Assembly (NCBI RefSeq): GCF_900100705.1
Contig: NZ_FNCH01000002.1
Coordinates: forward strand, 248,001-312,000
Reading direction: 5' to 3'
Source: Pedobacter terrae
GTDB lineage: Bacteria; Bacteroidota; Bacteroidia; Sphingobacteriales; Sphingobacteriaceae
Length of the DNA stretch: 64,000 nt
Below the pieces are notes generated by a model. It saw only the letters and a list, made by a program, of their open reading frames with translations, made no database searches and was not told the origin of the DNA. Of the stretch, positions 34,994 to 64,000 are shown piece by piece. Within the stretch, counting starts at the first letter, position 1. Each line of letters begins with the position of its first letter. The position numbers were made by a program, and so were the translations under genes.

Positions 34994-35177
34994 ATTGCAA
35001 GAATATACTCAATTTCAAAAAATTCAAGTTATTGAGGTCATTAAATGTAAATAGTATTTAAAATGGCAGCGACCATTACCCAAATTATTTCAGTACAAAG
35101 AACCAGAAAGAAATTAATAACAATTAGTGCTTCAGAATATAGGAATACATTCCCAGCAACTACTTGGAATAAATATA

Positions 35178-35921
35178 TCAAACTGTAAACAAATCCTTCC
35201 CTTCTTCCTCCAATAGTTTTTTAAAGAAAATTTCAGCATATTCTAAAAAACATTCATTCAAAGCTCTTCCTGTTATCATGATAGTGAGTTCTTCCCCATC
35301 AAAATCCTTATTAAGTAATAAGTCTTCTTTAATTGAAACATCAGCATTCTCGCTAATAAAAGAAAGTAGCTTTTTTCTATCGGGATCATCATGTGTAATT
35401 GTTCCTTGATGGTGTACCAATCTATTGCGTATCTTTCTTAACGAATTTAGATAGCTCCATTCAGGCTGTAATCTATTGAAGTCTATTTTGCAAATTTTGC
35501 TTAGATAGACTTTTGCCTTGTCCAAATCACTACTTCCCTTCAAATCTGAAATCGAAACAGCTGTTGAAAATTGATAATGATGTTGATTGCAAATTTGTTT
35601 CAATTCATACTCGACAAAAGAGAAAATTTGAATTAGAAATGATGCTCTGAAATTATGAGGAAAATAATAATCTAATTTCATGTATTCACTAGCCAGTTCG
35701 CTTTCTAAGAAGCTTTCATATTCTGGATCAGTTGCAGCCTCATTTGCGTGCTTATTATTTTTGCTGAAATTTTGGAAACGTTTGTTTTTTTCTGAAACTA
35801 AACCATCTTCAATTATACTATAATAGTCTAACAGTTCCCGAAATGCAATCTCTATTCCGAAAAAATAAATTTTGCTGTAATTTATTAACGTACTTTTAGA
35901 AGTTTTTTTGGATAAATTCAT
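35178..35921 (-). CDS. HEPN-like protein downstream of the PLD/EVE gene
   Basis: This 247-residue helical protein has RKIRNRLVHHQG near residues 163-174. RNRLVH fits the R-x4-H motif of HEPN RNases, and it follows a helix LNSLRK as in that fold. It lies 7 bp downstream of the PLD-like gene and is surely co-transcribed. HEPN proteins are often RNA-cutting toxins in defence or toxin-antitoxin systems. That it is the effector here is inference. Confidence 0.55.
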   Translation of the reverse strand: MNLSKKTSKSTLINYSKIYFFGIEIAFRELLDYYSIIEDGLVSEKNKRFQNFSKNNKHANEAATDPEYESFLESELASEYMKLDYYFPHNFRASFLIQIFSFVEYELKQICNQHHYQFSTAVSISDLKGSSDLDKAKVYLSKICKIDFNRLQPEWSYLNSLRKIRNRLVHHQGTITHDDPDRKKLLSFISENADVSIKEDLLLNKDFDGEELTIMITGRALNECFLEYAEIFFKKLLEEEGKDLFTV

Positions 35922-58973: not shown

Positions 58974-59165
58974 ATGACAACGTTAACCATACAAGTTAAA
59001 GATAACGACACTGAATTTCTTTTAGAAGTAATTAAAAGAATTAACGGCAAAGTAATCCAATCTTCGAAGAAAGAGAATTTGCTTAATGGTATAAAACAAG
59101 GAATAAAAGAAGCTAAAGATATTAAAGAGGGTAAAATTGCCCCGCTCTCTCTAAATGATATATAA
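58974..59165 (+). CDS. Antitoxin of a RelE/ParE-type pair
   Basis: The 63-residue protein has a beta-like start (MTTLTIQVKDNDTEFLLEVI) and a charged C-terminal part (GIKQGIKEAKDIKEGKIAPL) that would wrap the toxin. The toxin gene overlaps it by one base, the normal layout. This antitoxin type, without an obvious HTH, is common in Bacteroidetes. Confidence 0.78.
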   Translation: MTTLTIQVKDNDTEFLLEVIKRINGKVIQSSKKENLLNGIKQGIKEAKDIKEGKIAPLSLNDI

Positions 59166-59488
59166 TGGCTGAAATTAAAATACTATATTCTCCCATTTTT
59201 ATAAAAAAAGCTAAGCAATTAAAAAAGAAACACTTATCATTAATTAGCGATCTATCTCAATTAGAATCGATATTACTAGAAAACCCCTATACAGGCACAC
59301 CTTTAGGAAACAACATTTTCAAAATAAGAATGGCTGTTAAAAGCAAGGGAAAAGGAAAAAGTGGTGGATATAGAGTAATCACCTATTTACAAAATGAAGA
59401 TGAGATCAATATGATTTATATCTATGACAAATCAGAGGAAGCTACCATTACAAAAAAAGATATTCAGAAAATAATTGATAGTTTATAA
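59165..59488 (+). CDS. RelE/ParE-family toxin
   Basis: The 107-residue protein has the RelE/ParE fold: a start KILYSPIFIKKAKQLKKKH, then GTPLGNNIFKIRMA, GKSGGYRVITYL and IYIYDKSEEATITKKD. The GYRVI strand with Arg and the lysine-rich surface fit an mRNA-cutting or gyrase-blocking toxin. The cellular target cannot be told. Confidence 0.88.
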   Translation: MAEIKILYSPIFIKKAKQLKKKHLSLISDLSQLESILLENPYTGTPLGNNIFKIRMAVKSKGKGKSGGYRVITYLQNEDEINMIYIYDKSEEATITKKDIQKIIDSL

Positions 59489-59613: not shown

Positions 59614-59643
59614 TTGACAAATTAAATTTTGTTATTACATTTG
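59614..59643 (+). promoter_or_regulatory. Promoter of the pheA attenuator transcript
   Basis: TTG at 59614-59616, 19 bp spacer, then TACATTTG at 59636-59643. This is a good match to the Bacteroidetes consensus (-33 TTG, -7 TAnnTTTG). Transcription should begin near 59650, just before the leader peptide. Confidence 0.75.
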
Positions 59644-59660
59644 GCTCAACAAAAAAAGAA

Positions 59661-59723
59661 ATGCAAAACACAAACACATATTACTTTGGTTACTTTTACT
59701 ATTTTAGTGAGAGCCGGGGCTAA
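59661..59723 (+). CDS. Tyr/Phe-rich leader peptide of the pheA attenuator
   Basis: This 20-codon ORF (ATG 59661, TAA 59721-59723) has codons 7-15 reading Y-Y-F-G-Y-F-Y-Y-F: five Tyr and three Phe. An A-rich stretch precedes the ATG. Codons 18-20 (Ser-Arg-Gly) contain the antiterminator arm. When charged Tyr or Phe tRNA is scarce, the ribosome would stall in this run and leave that arm free. The peptide itself has no expected function. Tyr codons outnumber Phe codons although the next gene is pheA. Confidence 0.9.
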   Translation: MQNTNTYYFGYFYYFSESRG

Positions 59724-59791
59724 TATGCAAAAAGATATATAACAATATTAAAATGTATAAAAAAGTCCCGGCAAACAGCCGGGACTTTTTT
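59713..59791 (+). promoter_or_regulatory. Attenuator: alternative antiterminator and terminator
   Basis: GTCCCGGC (59765-59772) can pair in two ways. With GCCGGGAC (59778-59785, loop AAACA) and flanking A6/T6 it forms a rho-independent terminator ending at 59791. With GCCGGGGC (59713-59720) it forms an 8-bp antiterminator with one G-U. The second arm lies in the last codons of the leader peptide, so a ribosome at the stop codon masks it and allows termination, while a ribosome stalled on Tyr/Phe codons does not. Confidence 0.9.
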
Positions 59792-59805
59792 GTTTTAACG
59801 CAAAA

Positions 59806-60639
59806 ATGGAAACGACAAAACGAGTAGCAATTCAGGGTATTAAAGCATCTTTTCACGAAGAAGCTGCGTACAAATTTTTTGGTAAAGACATTGAAACTGT
59901 TGAGTGTAATTCTTTTAAAGAGACTTGCGACAAGCTGGAAAAAAACGAGGCTGATTTCGTAGTCATGGCTATCGAAAACTCTATCGCCGGCAGTTTATTG
60001 CCAAACTATACACTGATCAGGGATTTTGGTTTTTCAGTTGTGGGCGAGGTTTACTTACCTATCCAATTGCACTTAATGGCGTTACCCGGCGTAAAGTTTG
60101 AAGATATAAAAGTAGTCACCTCACATCCTATCGCCATCCGTCAGTGTATCGATTTCTTTTATGATTATCCACACATTAAAATTGTAGAAAGCAACGATAC
60201 GGCAGCCTGTGCAAAACGGATCCAGGAAGAACAATTAACCGATACCATGGCTATTGCAAACAGTTTAGCTGCAGAACTTTACGGCTTAAACATTTTAGAA
60301 CGCCGTGTAGAATCGAACAAGAAAAACTATACCCGTTTCCTGATCCTTAAAAAAGACAAAACAGACGAAGGCAAAAAAATAAACAAAGCCTCCATTTGCT
60401 TTCAGGTTGGCCACAAGGCCGGTTCATTGGCAACCGTGTTAAATATTTTCGCAGAACAAGAGGTAAGCTTAACAAAAATACAATCTATGCCTGTTTTAGG
60501 TAAAAGAAACGAATATTACTTTTACGTAGACTTAGAGTGGCCAAGTACCGAAAAATACGATAAGGCCATTAGAAAGGCATTAAAATATACATCGAACTTT
60601 AACATATTAGGAGAATATCAAAAGAACGATAAAGTATAA
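59806..60639 (+). CDS. pheA: Prephenate dehydratase
   Basis: The 277-residue enzyme makes phenylpyruvate from prephenate. The catalytic part (about residues 6-185) has the expected ASFHEEAAYKFF, AIENSIAGSLLPNY and YTRFLIL segments. A C-terminal ACT domain (about residues 195-270) should bind Phe for feedback. The usual ESRP motif of that domain reads KIQSMP, so feedback may be altered. It is directly downstream of the Tyr/Phe attenuator. Confidence 0.95.
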   Translation: METTKRVAIQGIKASFHEEAAYKFFGKDIETVECNSFKETCDKLEKNEADFVVMAIENSIAGSLLPNYTLIRDFGFSVVGEVYLPIQLHLMALPGVKFEDIKVVTSHPIAIRQCIDFFYDYPHIKIVESNDTAACAKRIQEEQLTDTMAIANSLAAELYGLNILERRVESNKKNYTRFLILKKDKTDEGKKINKASICFQVGHKAGSLATVLNIFAEQEVSLTKIQSMPVLGKRNEYYFYVDLEWPSTEKYDKAIRKALKYTSNFNILGEYQKNDKV

Positions 60640-60754
60640 ATAAGTCGGGAGCTCGAAGACAAATAGTAGAACATTTAAACTAATAATAATAAAATAATTA
60701 AAATATAACTCTGGACTTCCGACTGCGGACTAAGGACTTTAACAACCCATCATC

Positions 60755-61894
60755 ATGAAACTTAATTTAAACATTCAGCCTTTAAACACCTGGTTAAACG
60801 TAAACAACGAACCATTAATCATTTCTGGTCCCTGCAGTGCAGAAACTGAAGAACAATTATTAACTACAGCGCATTTATTAGCCGCTACCGGTAAAGTATC
60901 GGTATTGCGCGCAGGTATCTGGAAACCACGTACCCGTCCGGGAGAATTTGAAGGAATCGGAAGTATTGGTTTAGAATGGTTAAAACGCGCAAAAGCAGAA
61001 ACCGGTTTACCAACAGCTGTAGAGGTTGCAAATGCAAAACATGTTGAAGAGGCTTTAGCAGCTGGTGTCGATATCCTATGGATCGGTGCACGTTCTACGG
61101 TTAATCCATTCACTGTTCAGGAAATTGCTGATGCTTTAAAAGGCCATGATGTTCCGGTATTGATCAAAAACCCGGTTAATCCGGATTTACAGTTATGGAT
61201 TGGTGCAATTGAGCGGATCAACGGTGCGGGCATTACTAAAATAGGTGCTATCCACCGCGGTTTCTCATCATTCGAAAAAAGTTCTTTCCGTAACGAGCCG
61301 ATGTGGGAAATGGCGATCCAGTTAAAAACTTTATGCCCTGAACTTCCAATCATCAACGATCCAAGCCATATTTGCGGTAACCGTGAATTAATCCCTTACG
61401 TTGCTCAAAAAGCGTTAGATTTAGATATGCAAGGTTTAATGATCGAATCTCACGTAGACCCTTCAGTGGCCTGGACAGATGCCAAACAACAAGTTACACC
61501 AGCTGCTTTAGCAGAATTGGTAGAGCGTTTAACTGTACGTGAACCAGAGGCACCAAACGAAGCATCTGCCGACAAATTAGCTGAACTACGTAAGTCAATC
61601 GATAAAATTGATGATATCTTATTACAGAAATTAGGTGAGCGTATGGCTATTGTAGAGAAAATTGGTGAATTTAAGCGTGATAACCAGGTAACGATCTTAC
61701 AGGTTAACCGTTGGGATGCCATCATTAAAAAAGGGCATGCTTTTGCAAAAGCTTTAAAATTAGATTTAAACTTTACAGAGAAATTCTTAGAATTGATGCA
61801 CGGTGAATCCATCCGTAAGCAAACTGAAATTATGAATGCGGGCAAAGCTGAAAAAGGTATTGCTGCAGAACAACATAACGAGGTTAAAGCGTAG
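60755..61894 (+). CDS. Bifunctional DAHP synthase / chorismate mutase
   Basis: The 379-residue protein has an N-terminal DAHP synthase (about residues 1-265; ISGPCSAETEEQLL, AGIWKPRTRPGEFEGIG, IIDDPSHICGNRELI-like IINDPSHICGNRELI, GLMIESHVDPS) and a C-terminal type II chorismate mutase (about 275-360; LAELRKSIDKIDDILLQKLG, then HGESIRKQTEIM). It makes the first shikimate intermediate and prephenate, the substrate of PheA. It may share the attenuated transcript with pheA (115-bp gap with no clear terminator). Confidence 0.94.
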   Translation: MKLNLNIQPLNTWLNVNNEPLIISGPCSAETEEQLLTTAHLLAATGKVSVLRAGIWKPRTRPGEFEGIGSIGLEWLKRAKAETGLPTAVEVANAKHVEEALAAGVDILWIGARSTVNPFTVQEIADALKGHDVPVLIKNPVNPDLQLWIGAIERINGAGITKIGAIHRGFSSFEKSSFRNEPMWEMAIQLKTLCPELPIINDPSHICGNRELIPYVAQKALDLDMQGLMIESHVDPSVAWTDAKQQVTPAALAELVERLTVREPEAPNEASADKLAELRKSIDKIDDILLQKLGERMAIVEKIGEFKRDNQVTILQVNRWDAIIKKGHAFAKALKLDLNFTEKFLELMHGESIRKQTEIMNAGKAEKGIAAEQHNEVKA

Positions 61895-62010: not shown

Positions 62011-62050
62011 TAGATGTATTGTCAGATGTTACCATCTGACAATACATCTA
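62011..62050. repeat. Perfect 18-bp inverted repeat between DAHP synthase and aroA
   Basis: TAGATGTATTGTCAGATG and CATCTGACAATACATCTA flank a TTAC loop, 20 bp before aroA. On the plus strand no T tract follows. On the minus strand a T-rich run follows, but no gene reads that way. It may be an mRNA processing or stability element or a dispersed repeat. Confidence 0.75.
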
Positions 62051-62069: not shown

Positions 62070-63359
62070 ATGTCTAAAAATGCCTTAGTTTCTTTTAATG
62101 GAACCAAGAATATTAATACGGAAATCCAATTAACAGGCTCGAAAAGCGAATGCAACAGGGCACTGATTATTAGCGCTTTGAGCAAGAAGTTGGTTAAAGT
62201 AGATAATTTATCGAATGCAGCTGATACGGTAACCTTAAATGGCATCCTAAACAAGTTGGGAATTGATAATAGTGAGTTGGGAGCAGACTCCAAACTGAAA
62301 ACTGCAAACTCCGAACTGGTTGACGTTGGCCCTGCAGGAACCGCTATGCGATTCTTATCGGCTTATCTTTCCGCCAAGAACGGGAATTTCTTACTTACCG
62401 GAACCGAGCGTATGAAACAACGCCCGATCGGTATTCTGGCTGAAGCATTAAAAACCATAGGCGCTGATATTTCTTATGCAGAAGCAGAAGGTTTCCCGCC
62501 ATTGAATATTAATGGTCCGTTAAATCAAAAAACTGCCGAAGTTAAAATAAAAGGCGATATCAGCAGTCAATATATTTCGGCCTTGCTGATGATTGCCCCT
62601 ATCCTGCCTCAAGGTTTAACTTTGGAAATTGAGGGCGAGCTTACCTCAAAACCATATGTGGATATGACCTTAGATATGCTTGCAGAAGTTGGCATCGAGC
62701 ATCATTGGAATGGGAATTCCATTTCCATCGAACCACAGGCTTTTAAACCAGGTACCTTAGTTGTTGAACCCGATTGGAGTGCAGCGTCTTACTGGTATAG
62801 CATTGCAGCTTTAGCTGATGAAGCAGAAATTAGTCTACCTGCCTTAAAGGAAAAAAGTTTACAGGGCGATAGTCAGATTAAAAATATCATGAAGATTTTT
62901 GGTATTGCCACCAGCAAAACTGATAATGGAATTGCGATTAGCAACTTAGGCCTTTCTCTAGATACAAAGCAAGTTTTAGACTTAAAAACCTGTCCGGATT
63001 TAGCACAAACAATTATCGTTATTGCTGCAGCTTTAGGTAAAAACATGGCTTTTACAGGTTTAGAAACCTTAAAAATTAAAGAAACAGACCGTATTGCAGC
63101 CCTTCAGAACGAATTGGCCAAGATAGGCGTTACGCTAACTGAAAATAACCTGATTTATACGCTGAATACCGACAATCTTCATTTCCCGGATAAAATTACC
63201 ATTGCAACCTACGAAGACCACCGTATGGCCATGGCGTTTGCGCCACTTGCATTGTTGATCAAAGAAGTTGAAATTGAAGAAATGCAGGTAGTAGAAAAAT
63301 CTTATCCATATTACTGGGAAGATTTGAAAAAAGCGGGGTTTGAGGTGAAAGAGATTTGA
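62070..63359 (+). CDS. aroA: 3-phosphoshikimate 1-carboxyvinyltransferase (EPSP synthase)
   Basis: The 429-residue enzyme transfers the enolpyruvyl group of PEP to shikimate 3-phosphate. Motifs seen are LTGSKSECNRALIISALSK, DVGPAGTAMRFLSAYLS, GTERMKQRPIGIL, KGDISSQYISALL and KIKETDRIAALQNEL. A loop after about residue 65 (SELGADSKLKTANSEL) is encoded by DNA containing AACTGAAAACTG, the same word that forms an intergenic tandem at 55.2 kb. The loop is just before the conserved DVGPAGTAMR. Confidence 0.94.
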   Translation: MSKNALVSFNGTKNINTEIQLTGSKSECNRALIISALSKKLVKVDNLSNAADTVTLNGILNKLGIDNSELGADSKLKTANSELVDVGPAGTAMRFLSAYLSAKNGNFLLTGTERMKQRPIGILAEALKTIGADISYAEAEGFPPLNINGPLNQKTAEVKIKGDISSQYISALLMIAPILPQGLTLEIEGELTSKPYVDMTLDMLAEVGIEHHWNGNSISIEPQAFKPGTLVVEPDWSAASYWYSIAALADEAEISLPALKEKSLQGDSQIKNIMKIFGIATSKTDNGIAISNLGLSLDTKQVLDLKTCPDLAQTIIVIAAALGKNMAFTGLETLKIKETDRIAALQNELAKIGVTLTENNLIYTLNTDNLHFPDKITIATYEDHRMAMAFAPLALLIKEVEIEEMQVVEKSYPYYWEDLKKAGFEVKEI

Positions 63360-63571: not shown

Positions 63572-64000
63572 ATGGCAGGCAACTCATTCGGACAACTTTT
63601 TCGCATCACAACCTTTGGCGAATCTCACGGCGTGGCTATTGGTGTAATTATCGACGGCTGTCCGGCACAATTGAATATTGATCTGGATTTTATCCAGTCA
63701 GAACTGGACAAACGTAAACCAGGCCAATCCAAAATCACCACGCAAAGAAAAGAGAGCGATACCGTTCAGATTTTATCGGGTGTATTTGAAGGAAAAAGTA
63801 CCGGGACACCGATTGCCCTGTTAATCCCGAATGAAGATCAGCGTTCAAAAGATTATGGACATAATGTTGATGTTTACCGTCCTAGCCATGCCGATTATGT
63901 TTACGATGCAAAGTATGGAATCCGCGATCACCGGGGCGGAGGGCGTTCTTCTGCACGTGAAACTGCAGCCCGTGTAGCAGCCGGAGCCATTGCAAAATTG
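63572..64000 (+). CDS. aroC: Chorismate synthase, N-terminal part
   Basis: The first 143 codons are in the window and the gene runs off the right edge. The product starts [20 protein letters not shown], the chorismate synthase signature, with [17 protein letters not shown] and [20 protein letters not shown]. It completes the shikimate pathway by making chorismate. It lies 212 bp after aroA. That gap has short TCAGATT-type repeats and no terminator. Confidence 0.95.

Follow-up and report, generated by a model that had tools for sequence, protein, structure and literature searches.

The closest well-described counterparts of the locus reported here are the enteric attenuators of pheA (pheL) and trp (trpL), in which a short leader with cognate codons and a set of mutually exclusive RNA helices precede a gene of the matching pathway, with a terminator directly ahead of that gene and with the stop codon of the leader adjoining strand 2. 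All of these features recur upstream of pheA in Pedobacter terrae. The Pedobacter leader differs from enteric pheL in that its codon run is a mixture of Tyr and Phe, joined by Trp in relatives, instead of Phe alone, and in that its promoter is of the Bacteroidota type. The pheA gene is also different, since it carries no fused chorismate mutase and is followed by a gene for a DAHP synthase/chorismate mutase. A second useful comparison is with the multivalent leaders of ilv (Ile/Val/Leu) and thr (Thr/Ile), where one leader senses several products of the same operon; in the Pedobacter case the inputs would be aromatic amino acids, which share DAHP synthase as their entry step. DAHP synthase is the entry step for Phe, Tyr and Trp alike.

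Table 7 of PMC1173090 enters, from Merino's web predictions, an attenuator before the Bacteroides thetaiotaomicron operon pheA > hisHb > aroAIbeta-aroQ > tyrA. This is a similar operon in the same phylum, with the attenuator likewise predicted before pheA, but it retains hisHb and tyrA, and the table entry comes without leader sequence or codons. For Flavobacterium psychrophilum, the available part of PMC9723704 reports strong indications that leader peptides attenuate amino-acid operons, and it describes a structured 5′ element upstream of pheA that further genera of Flavobacteriaceae also possess and that no Rfam family matches. That element shares with ours the gene, the phylum and the lack of an Rfam hit; it belongs, however, to another family, and in that part of the paper it is not explicitly named as a leader-peptide case and no helices or codons are given for it. 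Leader-peptide-like small ORFs in B. thetaiotaomicron are the subject of PMC7366714, the accessible text of which does not include pheA, and the accessible part of PMC4833913 cites the attenuator survey of Lopatovskaya 2010, which may list the operon. Our searches, which covered mainly open-access literature, yielded no earlier account of the Sphingobacteriaceae leader or its Trp codon. An attenuator at the pheA operon has thus already been predicted in this phylum, and the Sphingobacteriaceae case adds a well-documented instance.

The pheA leader region

The features discussed below lie in the window, by which we mean the whole stretch of 64,000 nucleotides that was analysed; it belongs to contig 27 of its genome.

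59614-59643, + strand: promoter, with TTG at 59614-59616, a spacer of 19 nt and TACATTTG at 59636-59643 (from the sequence)
59661-59723, + strand: leader peptide ORF of 20 codons, MQNTNTYYFGYFYYFSESRG and stop (from the sequence; kept in relatives)
59677-59701, + strand: RNA strand 1 (protector), Tyr/Phe codons pairing with strand 2 (MFE fold; 1:2 co-variation)
59705-59727, + strand: RNA strand 2, overlapping the last leader codons and the stop codon (fold; kept in relatives)
59713-59720, + strand: antiterminator core GCCGGGGC, inside strand 2 and the leader ORF (complementarity)
59759-59791, + strand: predicted intrinsic terminator, a perfect 14-bp stem with a 5-nt loop AAACA and T6 at 59786-59791 (fold; co-varying 3:4)
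59765-59772, + strand: RNA strand 3 core GTCCCGGC, common to antiterminator 2:3 and terminator 3:4
59806-60639, + strand: pheA, prephenate dehydratase, 277 aa, first gene under the predicted control (PF00800, E 4e-56)
60755-61894, + strand: gene for a DAHP synthase-chorismate mutase fusion protein of 379 aa, probably on the same transcript as pheA (PF00793 and PF01817)
62070-63359, + strand: aroA (EPSP synthase), a probable further operon member (PF00275)
63572-64000, + strand: 5′ part of an ORF that continues beyond the window end and that we take to be aroC, chorismate synthase

Tyr and Phe account for eight of the nine codons at 59679-59705 in the putative leader peptide. GCCGGGGC is complementary to GTCCCGGC, including one G-U pair, and GTCCCGGC is also complementary to GCCGGGAC (59778-59785) within the terminator stem, the arms of which (59759-59772 and 59778-59791) contain no mismatch. 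The combination of TAnnTTTG with an upstream TTG or TTTG is the promoter type of Bacteroidota. A sequence-only reading of this DNA had proposed the promoter, the leader ORF, the Tyr/Phe run, both alternative pairings and the T run, and a check against the sequence found every one of them at the position that it had given. The MFE fold adds a 1:2 helix that was absent from that reading, in which 59677-59689 and 59693-59701 pair with 59705-59719 and 59721-59727; with the 1:2, 2:3 and 3:4 helices all present, the region has the full layout of a classical attenuator. The predicted fold of 59650-59800 has an energy of -43.4 kcal/mol as compared with -20.3 +/- 3.5 kcal/mol for 200 shuffles (z -6.5), none of which was as good.

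A terminator scan reported the attenuator stem on the minus strand only; since A6 and T6 lie on either side of it, the stem is symmetrical. An Rfam scan of the whole window at gathering score returned one tRNA only, with no match to a leader family or to the T-box, and similar scans of L002, L105, L107 and L125 gave no match at gathering score. The Rfam leader families comparable to the present case are Trp_leader, His_leader and similar ones.

Conservation of the leader

PheA was found in 42 of 59 relatives and in 283 of 301 Sphingobacteriaceae genomes. Upstream DNA was examined in 115 family genomes, made up of the loci returned and of a choice that covers all 22 genera with a PheA match, and an aromatic run is present upstream of pheA in all 115 and in all 22 genera, with eight aromatic codons per nine in 90 loci, seven in 23 and six in 2. 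A strict parser, which asks for an ORF starting with ATG, GTG or TTG, for at least six aromatic codons in nine and for a terminator at the right distance, passes 106 of the 115 family loci, and in the nine that it misses both leader and terminator are visible by eye. Dinucleotide-shuffled family upstream regions yielded a leader with a terminator in 0 of 575 cases, the ORF alone in 9 and the terminator alone in 7. The promoter element is retained as well: 104 of the 106 parsed family loci have TAnnTTTG no more than 75 nt before the start of the leader, against a mononucleotide-shuffled rate of 5%, and in 101 of the 106 it is preceded by TTG.

The 37 closest among the best 80 named PheA loci (L169-L205) all carry the leader and match R1, a covariance model built from 44 family leaders, with E at most 1.1e-7; the nearest named relative by PheA among the matches listed is Pedobacter kyungheensis, at 98%. 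Three contigs of metagenome-assembled genomes with unexpected titles, Legionellaceae (L187), Sericytochromatia (L245) and Bdellovibrio (L247), carry a pheA that is 71, 49 and 48% identical, respectively, to the Bacteroidota query. The contig titled Legionellaceae has the full leader (an R1 match), and all three bins are probably mislabelled or mixed.

Outside the family, a class-wide search found the PheA family in 44 of 158 genomes, and the class sample consisted of 39 loci. The strict parser passes 17 of these, and nine more (L107, L108, L137, L140, L144, L150, L152, L154 and L168) are positive by eye, giving 26 of 39; in the other 13 a leader was found neither by the parser nor by eye. Dinucleotide shuffles of the same loci gave leader with terminator in 0 of 195, the ORF alone in 3 and the terminator alone in 3. 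In the 17 parsed loci outside the family, TAnnTTTG occurs in only 9, and together with TTG in 7; both this scarcity and the 13 loci that lack a leader weigh against the attenuator reading. Among the matches listed, an aromatic leader ORF (scored as an ORF only) is present in 8 of 8 loci titled Cyclobacteriaceae and in 0 of 6 titled Prolixibacteraceae. In the class search with the covariance model, matches below about 45 bits include chance terminators and were left out of the counts.

Co-variation and folding

The pairing of the three helices was compared with that of exchanged strands in 55 representative genomes, and for each of 1:2, 2:3 and 3:4 the cognate pairing was equalled in 0 of 5000 permutations. 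Cognate strands did better than the median swap in 51 of 55 genomes for 1:2, in 45 for 2:3 and in 54 for 3:4, and within the family the 2:3 test is weaker, with 25 of 38 cognate pairs above the median swap. On A1, an alignment of 44 family leaders, 90.4% of the cells of the 3:4 helix are paired and changes on both sides occur at 9 of 14 pairs; the corresponding values for 1:2 are 88.1% and 11 of 22 pairs, and for both helices 0 of 500 shuffles were as high. Sliding the partners along the alignment makes the 1:2 and 3:4 values drop strongly. The 8-bp core of 2:3 is paired in 93.2% of cells, mostly through identity, with both-side changes at 4 of 8 pairs, a value reached by 20 of 500 shuffles, and a covariation score reached by 57 of 500, so that the co-variation of this core, as read from the alignment on its own, appears modest. 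The shuffle and swap controls correct only partly for relatedness. The sequence-only reading had made its case depend on both of its helices being conserved and co-varying in relatives, and this is what we observed, most weakly for the 2:3 core. By eye, several genera also show a possible outward continuation of the antiterminator helix (ATGCAT/ATGTAT, CGTTAA/TTAACG).

Folds were also predicted with part of the RNA masked by a ribosome that was assumed to have a 13-nt leading edge. When the ribosome occupies one of the three leading aromatic codons and the RNA stops short of strand 4, strand 3 finds an upstream partner over at least 5 bp in all 106 family loci and in all 17 others. When it sits at the stop codon, every one of the 106 and of the 17 loci forms 3:4 and not one forms 2:3, and with no ribosome 1:2 and 3:4 each form in 106 of 106 family loci and in 16 of 17 others. 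In the control for these folds at least 7 pairs were reached by 610 of 1230 shuffled spacers as against 115 of 123 real ones; because half of the shuffled spacers reach this number, pair counts discriminate little and only the energies separate the two, the mean for the 2:3 fold being -21.9 kcal/mol with real and -10.2 kcal/mol with shuffled spacers.

Similar leaders in the same genome

Look-alike leaders precede other amino-acid genes of the genome from which the window comes. Upstream of a trpE-like gene (L125, contig 36, reverse strand) a Trp leader, MINNIHTWLWQSNSKTDCAGCV, containing WLW, is followed by a GC-rich stem and T5, and is a probable trp attenuator, judging from its sequence. The gene for the bifunctional aspartokinase/homoserine dehydrogenase I (L250/L289, contig 12, about 35114-35236) has a Thr/Ile leader, MNFNTSIITTIIITTGINQRG, and a terminator upstream, and hisG (L287, contig 30) is preceded by MNLTLNHHLHLHHRR, a His leader with a weak AT-rich stem and T6 behind it; in another genome of the class (L267), MNTLAINMHHHHYFCA stands before a hisG-like ORF. 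These leaders suggest that attenuation may be a general means of amino-acid sensing here. We also looked for a second copy of the pheA switch and discarded the idea, since the exact pattern of strands 2 and 3 occurs once in the genome and the covariance model has one strong match (110 bits, a training sequence). Among the 60 weaker matches of the model in this genome the best, at 44 bits, is a Thr/Ile leader, and two of the weak matches, L251 and L253, resemble ordinary terminators.

Proposed mechanism and alternative explanations

Taken at the level of its sequence, the pheA leader is very probably a ribosome-mediated transcription attenuator of the trpL/pheL type that responds to aromatic amino acids. 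The anatomy of the region, its conservation, the co-variation of its helices and the masked folds are as such an attenuator requires, and the classical ribosome-stalling interpretation already offered in the sequence-only reading gains support from the last three of these in relatives. From these we infer premature termination in the cell, its link with the charging state of the tRNAs and how far the read-through transcript extends. RNA polymerase would start about 10-20 nt before the 20-codon leader. When Tyr-tRNA and Phe-tRNA are both plentiful, the ribosome would reach the stop codon at 59721 and cover strand 2, so that the 3:4 terminator could form and transcription would end near 59791. 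If either tRNA is short, the ribosome would stall within 59679-59705 and cover strand 1, leaving strand 2 free to form 2:3 before strand 4 is made, with read-through into pheA that would probably continue through the DAHP synthase/chorismate mutase gene, aroA and aroC. A leader that is not translated would adopt 1:2 together with 3:4 and terminate. Where the run of a relative includes TGG, a lack of Trp would be expected to have the same effect.

The same RNA switch could in principle be worked by a ribosome stalled for another reason, namely that the leader peptide in the tunnel senses a free aromatic amino acid, much as the TnaC peptide senses free Trp in the ribosome tunnel. In favour of this, many genera of the family have a closely similar peptide run, GYFYYF. 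However, several leaders stop sooner or end differently (TTYWFGYFYYFR, YYYQ or YYKK before the stop codon) while GCCGGG or a near variant of it is kept; Sphingobacterium-like leaders such as those of L072, L074 and L078 read the nearby GG as part of TGG (Trp) and not of GGN (Gly); the Gly codon is located at the 1:2 pairing site; and the order of the aromatic residues varies freely in other families. That the RNA is kept where the peptide differs favours RNA pairing and codon identity over an arrest peptide, which we consider very unlikely. Selection between 2:3 and 3:4 by a trans-acting RNA-binding protein or by a small-molecule aptamer, in the manner of a T-box or riboswitch, would agree with the well-structured 5′ portion of the RNA, but what is conserved is an ORF that abounds in exactly those amino acids which the downstream genes serve to make, no Rfam family was matched at gathering score in the window or in the four loci scanned, and the same genome has Trp, Thr/Ile and His leaders with matching codons before matching genes. 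This is the least likely of the explanations considered.

The symmetry of the stem (A6...T6) and the presence of a RelE-like gene upstream on the same strand would also suit a plain, unregulated terminator that insulates pheA from an upstream transcript, in which case the small ORF would be a chance or unrelated feature and pheA would be transcribed from another promoter. The gene in question is a lone RelE-like ORF (PF06296) at 59165-59488, just upstream of the promoter. Against this explanation, a promoter-like element lies upstream of the stem with the leader alone between them, and throughout the 22 family genera examined the leader is accompanied by the promoter element, strand 2 and the terminator, with differing upstream neighbours, a combination that the shuffles do not reproduce; we consider it slightly less likely even than the arrest peptide. 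The genes upstream of the leader do vary between species, with aroB directly adjoining in some. The results indicate that a large and environmentally important bacterial family regularly governs its aromatic operon by classical ribosome-stalling attenuation, and the pheA leader offers an exact and testable RNA switch that comes with natural codon variants.

The operon and its DAHP synthase

In every one of the 115 family loci pheA is followed on the same strand, after a gap of 5-473 bp, by a gene for a DAHP synthase/chorismate mutase. In all 33 family loci with long flanks (L084-L102 and L110-L123) aroA comes after it, and an aroC homologue is found further downstream in 30 of these. The intergenic gaps from pheA to aroC in the window are 115, 175 and 212 bp, a point against the proposed mechanism, and on the + strand the terminator scan gave no terminator-like site from the end of pheA to the start of aroA.

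No type II DAHP synthase was found in any of 40 genomes, and the number of PF00793 proteins per genome is two in 38 and one in 2 of the 40. In the genome of the window, the one genome for which the assignment was made, the second PF00793 protein is a KDO8P synthase, and given this and the lack of a type II enzyme the operon seems to hold the only DAHP synthase of the genome. The device therefore probably tunes entry to all aromatic amino acids. The suggestion in the sequence-only reading that the transcript continues into the DAHP synthase/chorismate mutase gene agrees with the synteny in all 115 family loci and with the failure to find another DAHP synthase in this genome.

Two further elements lie in the intergenic gaps. 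A perfect 18-bp inverted repeat at 62011-62050, in the gap between the DAHP synthase gene and aroA, has no T run on the + strand. The gap after pheA contains GGACTTCCGACT at 60713-60724, a single copy in the window. Among 290 fetched loci this sequence is present in 12, of which 4 belong to the genome of the window and 8 to other genomes of the genus; some of these loci have it twice, in opposite directions, and it resembles a small repeat that the genus carries between genes.

Amino acids probably sensed by the leader

The sequence-only reading treated the leader as a Tyr/Phe device. This describes the run in the window correctly, but many relatives add a Trp codon, which is present in 49 of the 106 parsed family leaders and missing from the clade of the window, and the device is for this reason better regarded as aromatic than as solely Tyr/Phe. 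The mean numbers of codons per parsed family leader (n = 106) are 4.28 for Tyr, 3.53 for Phe and 0.48 for Trp, and outside the family (n = 17), where 3 leaders contain Trp, they are 3.53, 4.59 and 0.18. A tree of 71 pheA sequences, 64 from the genus and 7 from elsewhere, requires no fewer than 5 switches of the Trp label, or 4 if only well-supported branches are counted, and the window sits in a 37-member clade without the Trp codon. A second DAHP synthase as the reason why some genomes are without this codon was considered and is unsupported, as a type II enzyme was found in none of the 40 genomes.

We give about an even chance to a more comprehensive proposal, according to which, in Sphingobacteriaceae and perhaps in much of the class, one cis-acting RNA would integrate Phe, Tyr and, through TGG, Trp in the control of the sole DAHP synthase. 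The Trp input would have been lost (or gained) several times, once toward the clade of the window, with strand 2 changing to match so that 1:2 stays paired (TAC with GGGGC, TGG with GGGAC). At 64 loci of the genus, codon 8 is TAC or TAT with G in strand 2 in 40 and TGG with A in 22, with 2 exceptions. Independent pairs for this comparison number 4, of which about 2 change in the same way, 0 in the opposite way and 2 show no difference (sign test, p 0.5), and since the co-segregation rests on few events we claim no significance for it. A mixed codon run of this kind provides a handle on how one leader weighs several amino acids.

The excess of Tyr codons, which had been called odd for a gene of Phe synthesis, is less odd in that the operon outside the family can hold an aminotransferase gene and tyrA: in L105, which belongs to another family, the gene order assigned by Pfam is pheA, aminotransferase, tyrA and DAHP synthase, and the excess may thus be a legacy of an operon whose products included Tyr. 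In L104, likewise by Pfam, the aminotransferase and tyrA are present and the leader is absent. Such a Tyr-making ancestral operon may have existed, as judged from these two Pfam-checked loci and from ORF sizes elsewhere. The sole PDH_N match in the genome of the window is a 418-aa protein (L001, contig 21), barely above the Pfam cut-off and encoded away from the operon; the 350 nt upstream of its gene contain no aromatic leader by eye, and the protein is likely to be the tyrA product of this organism.
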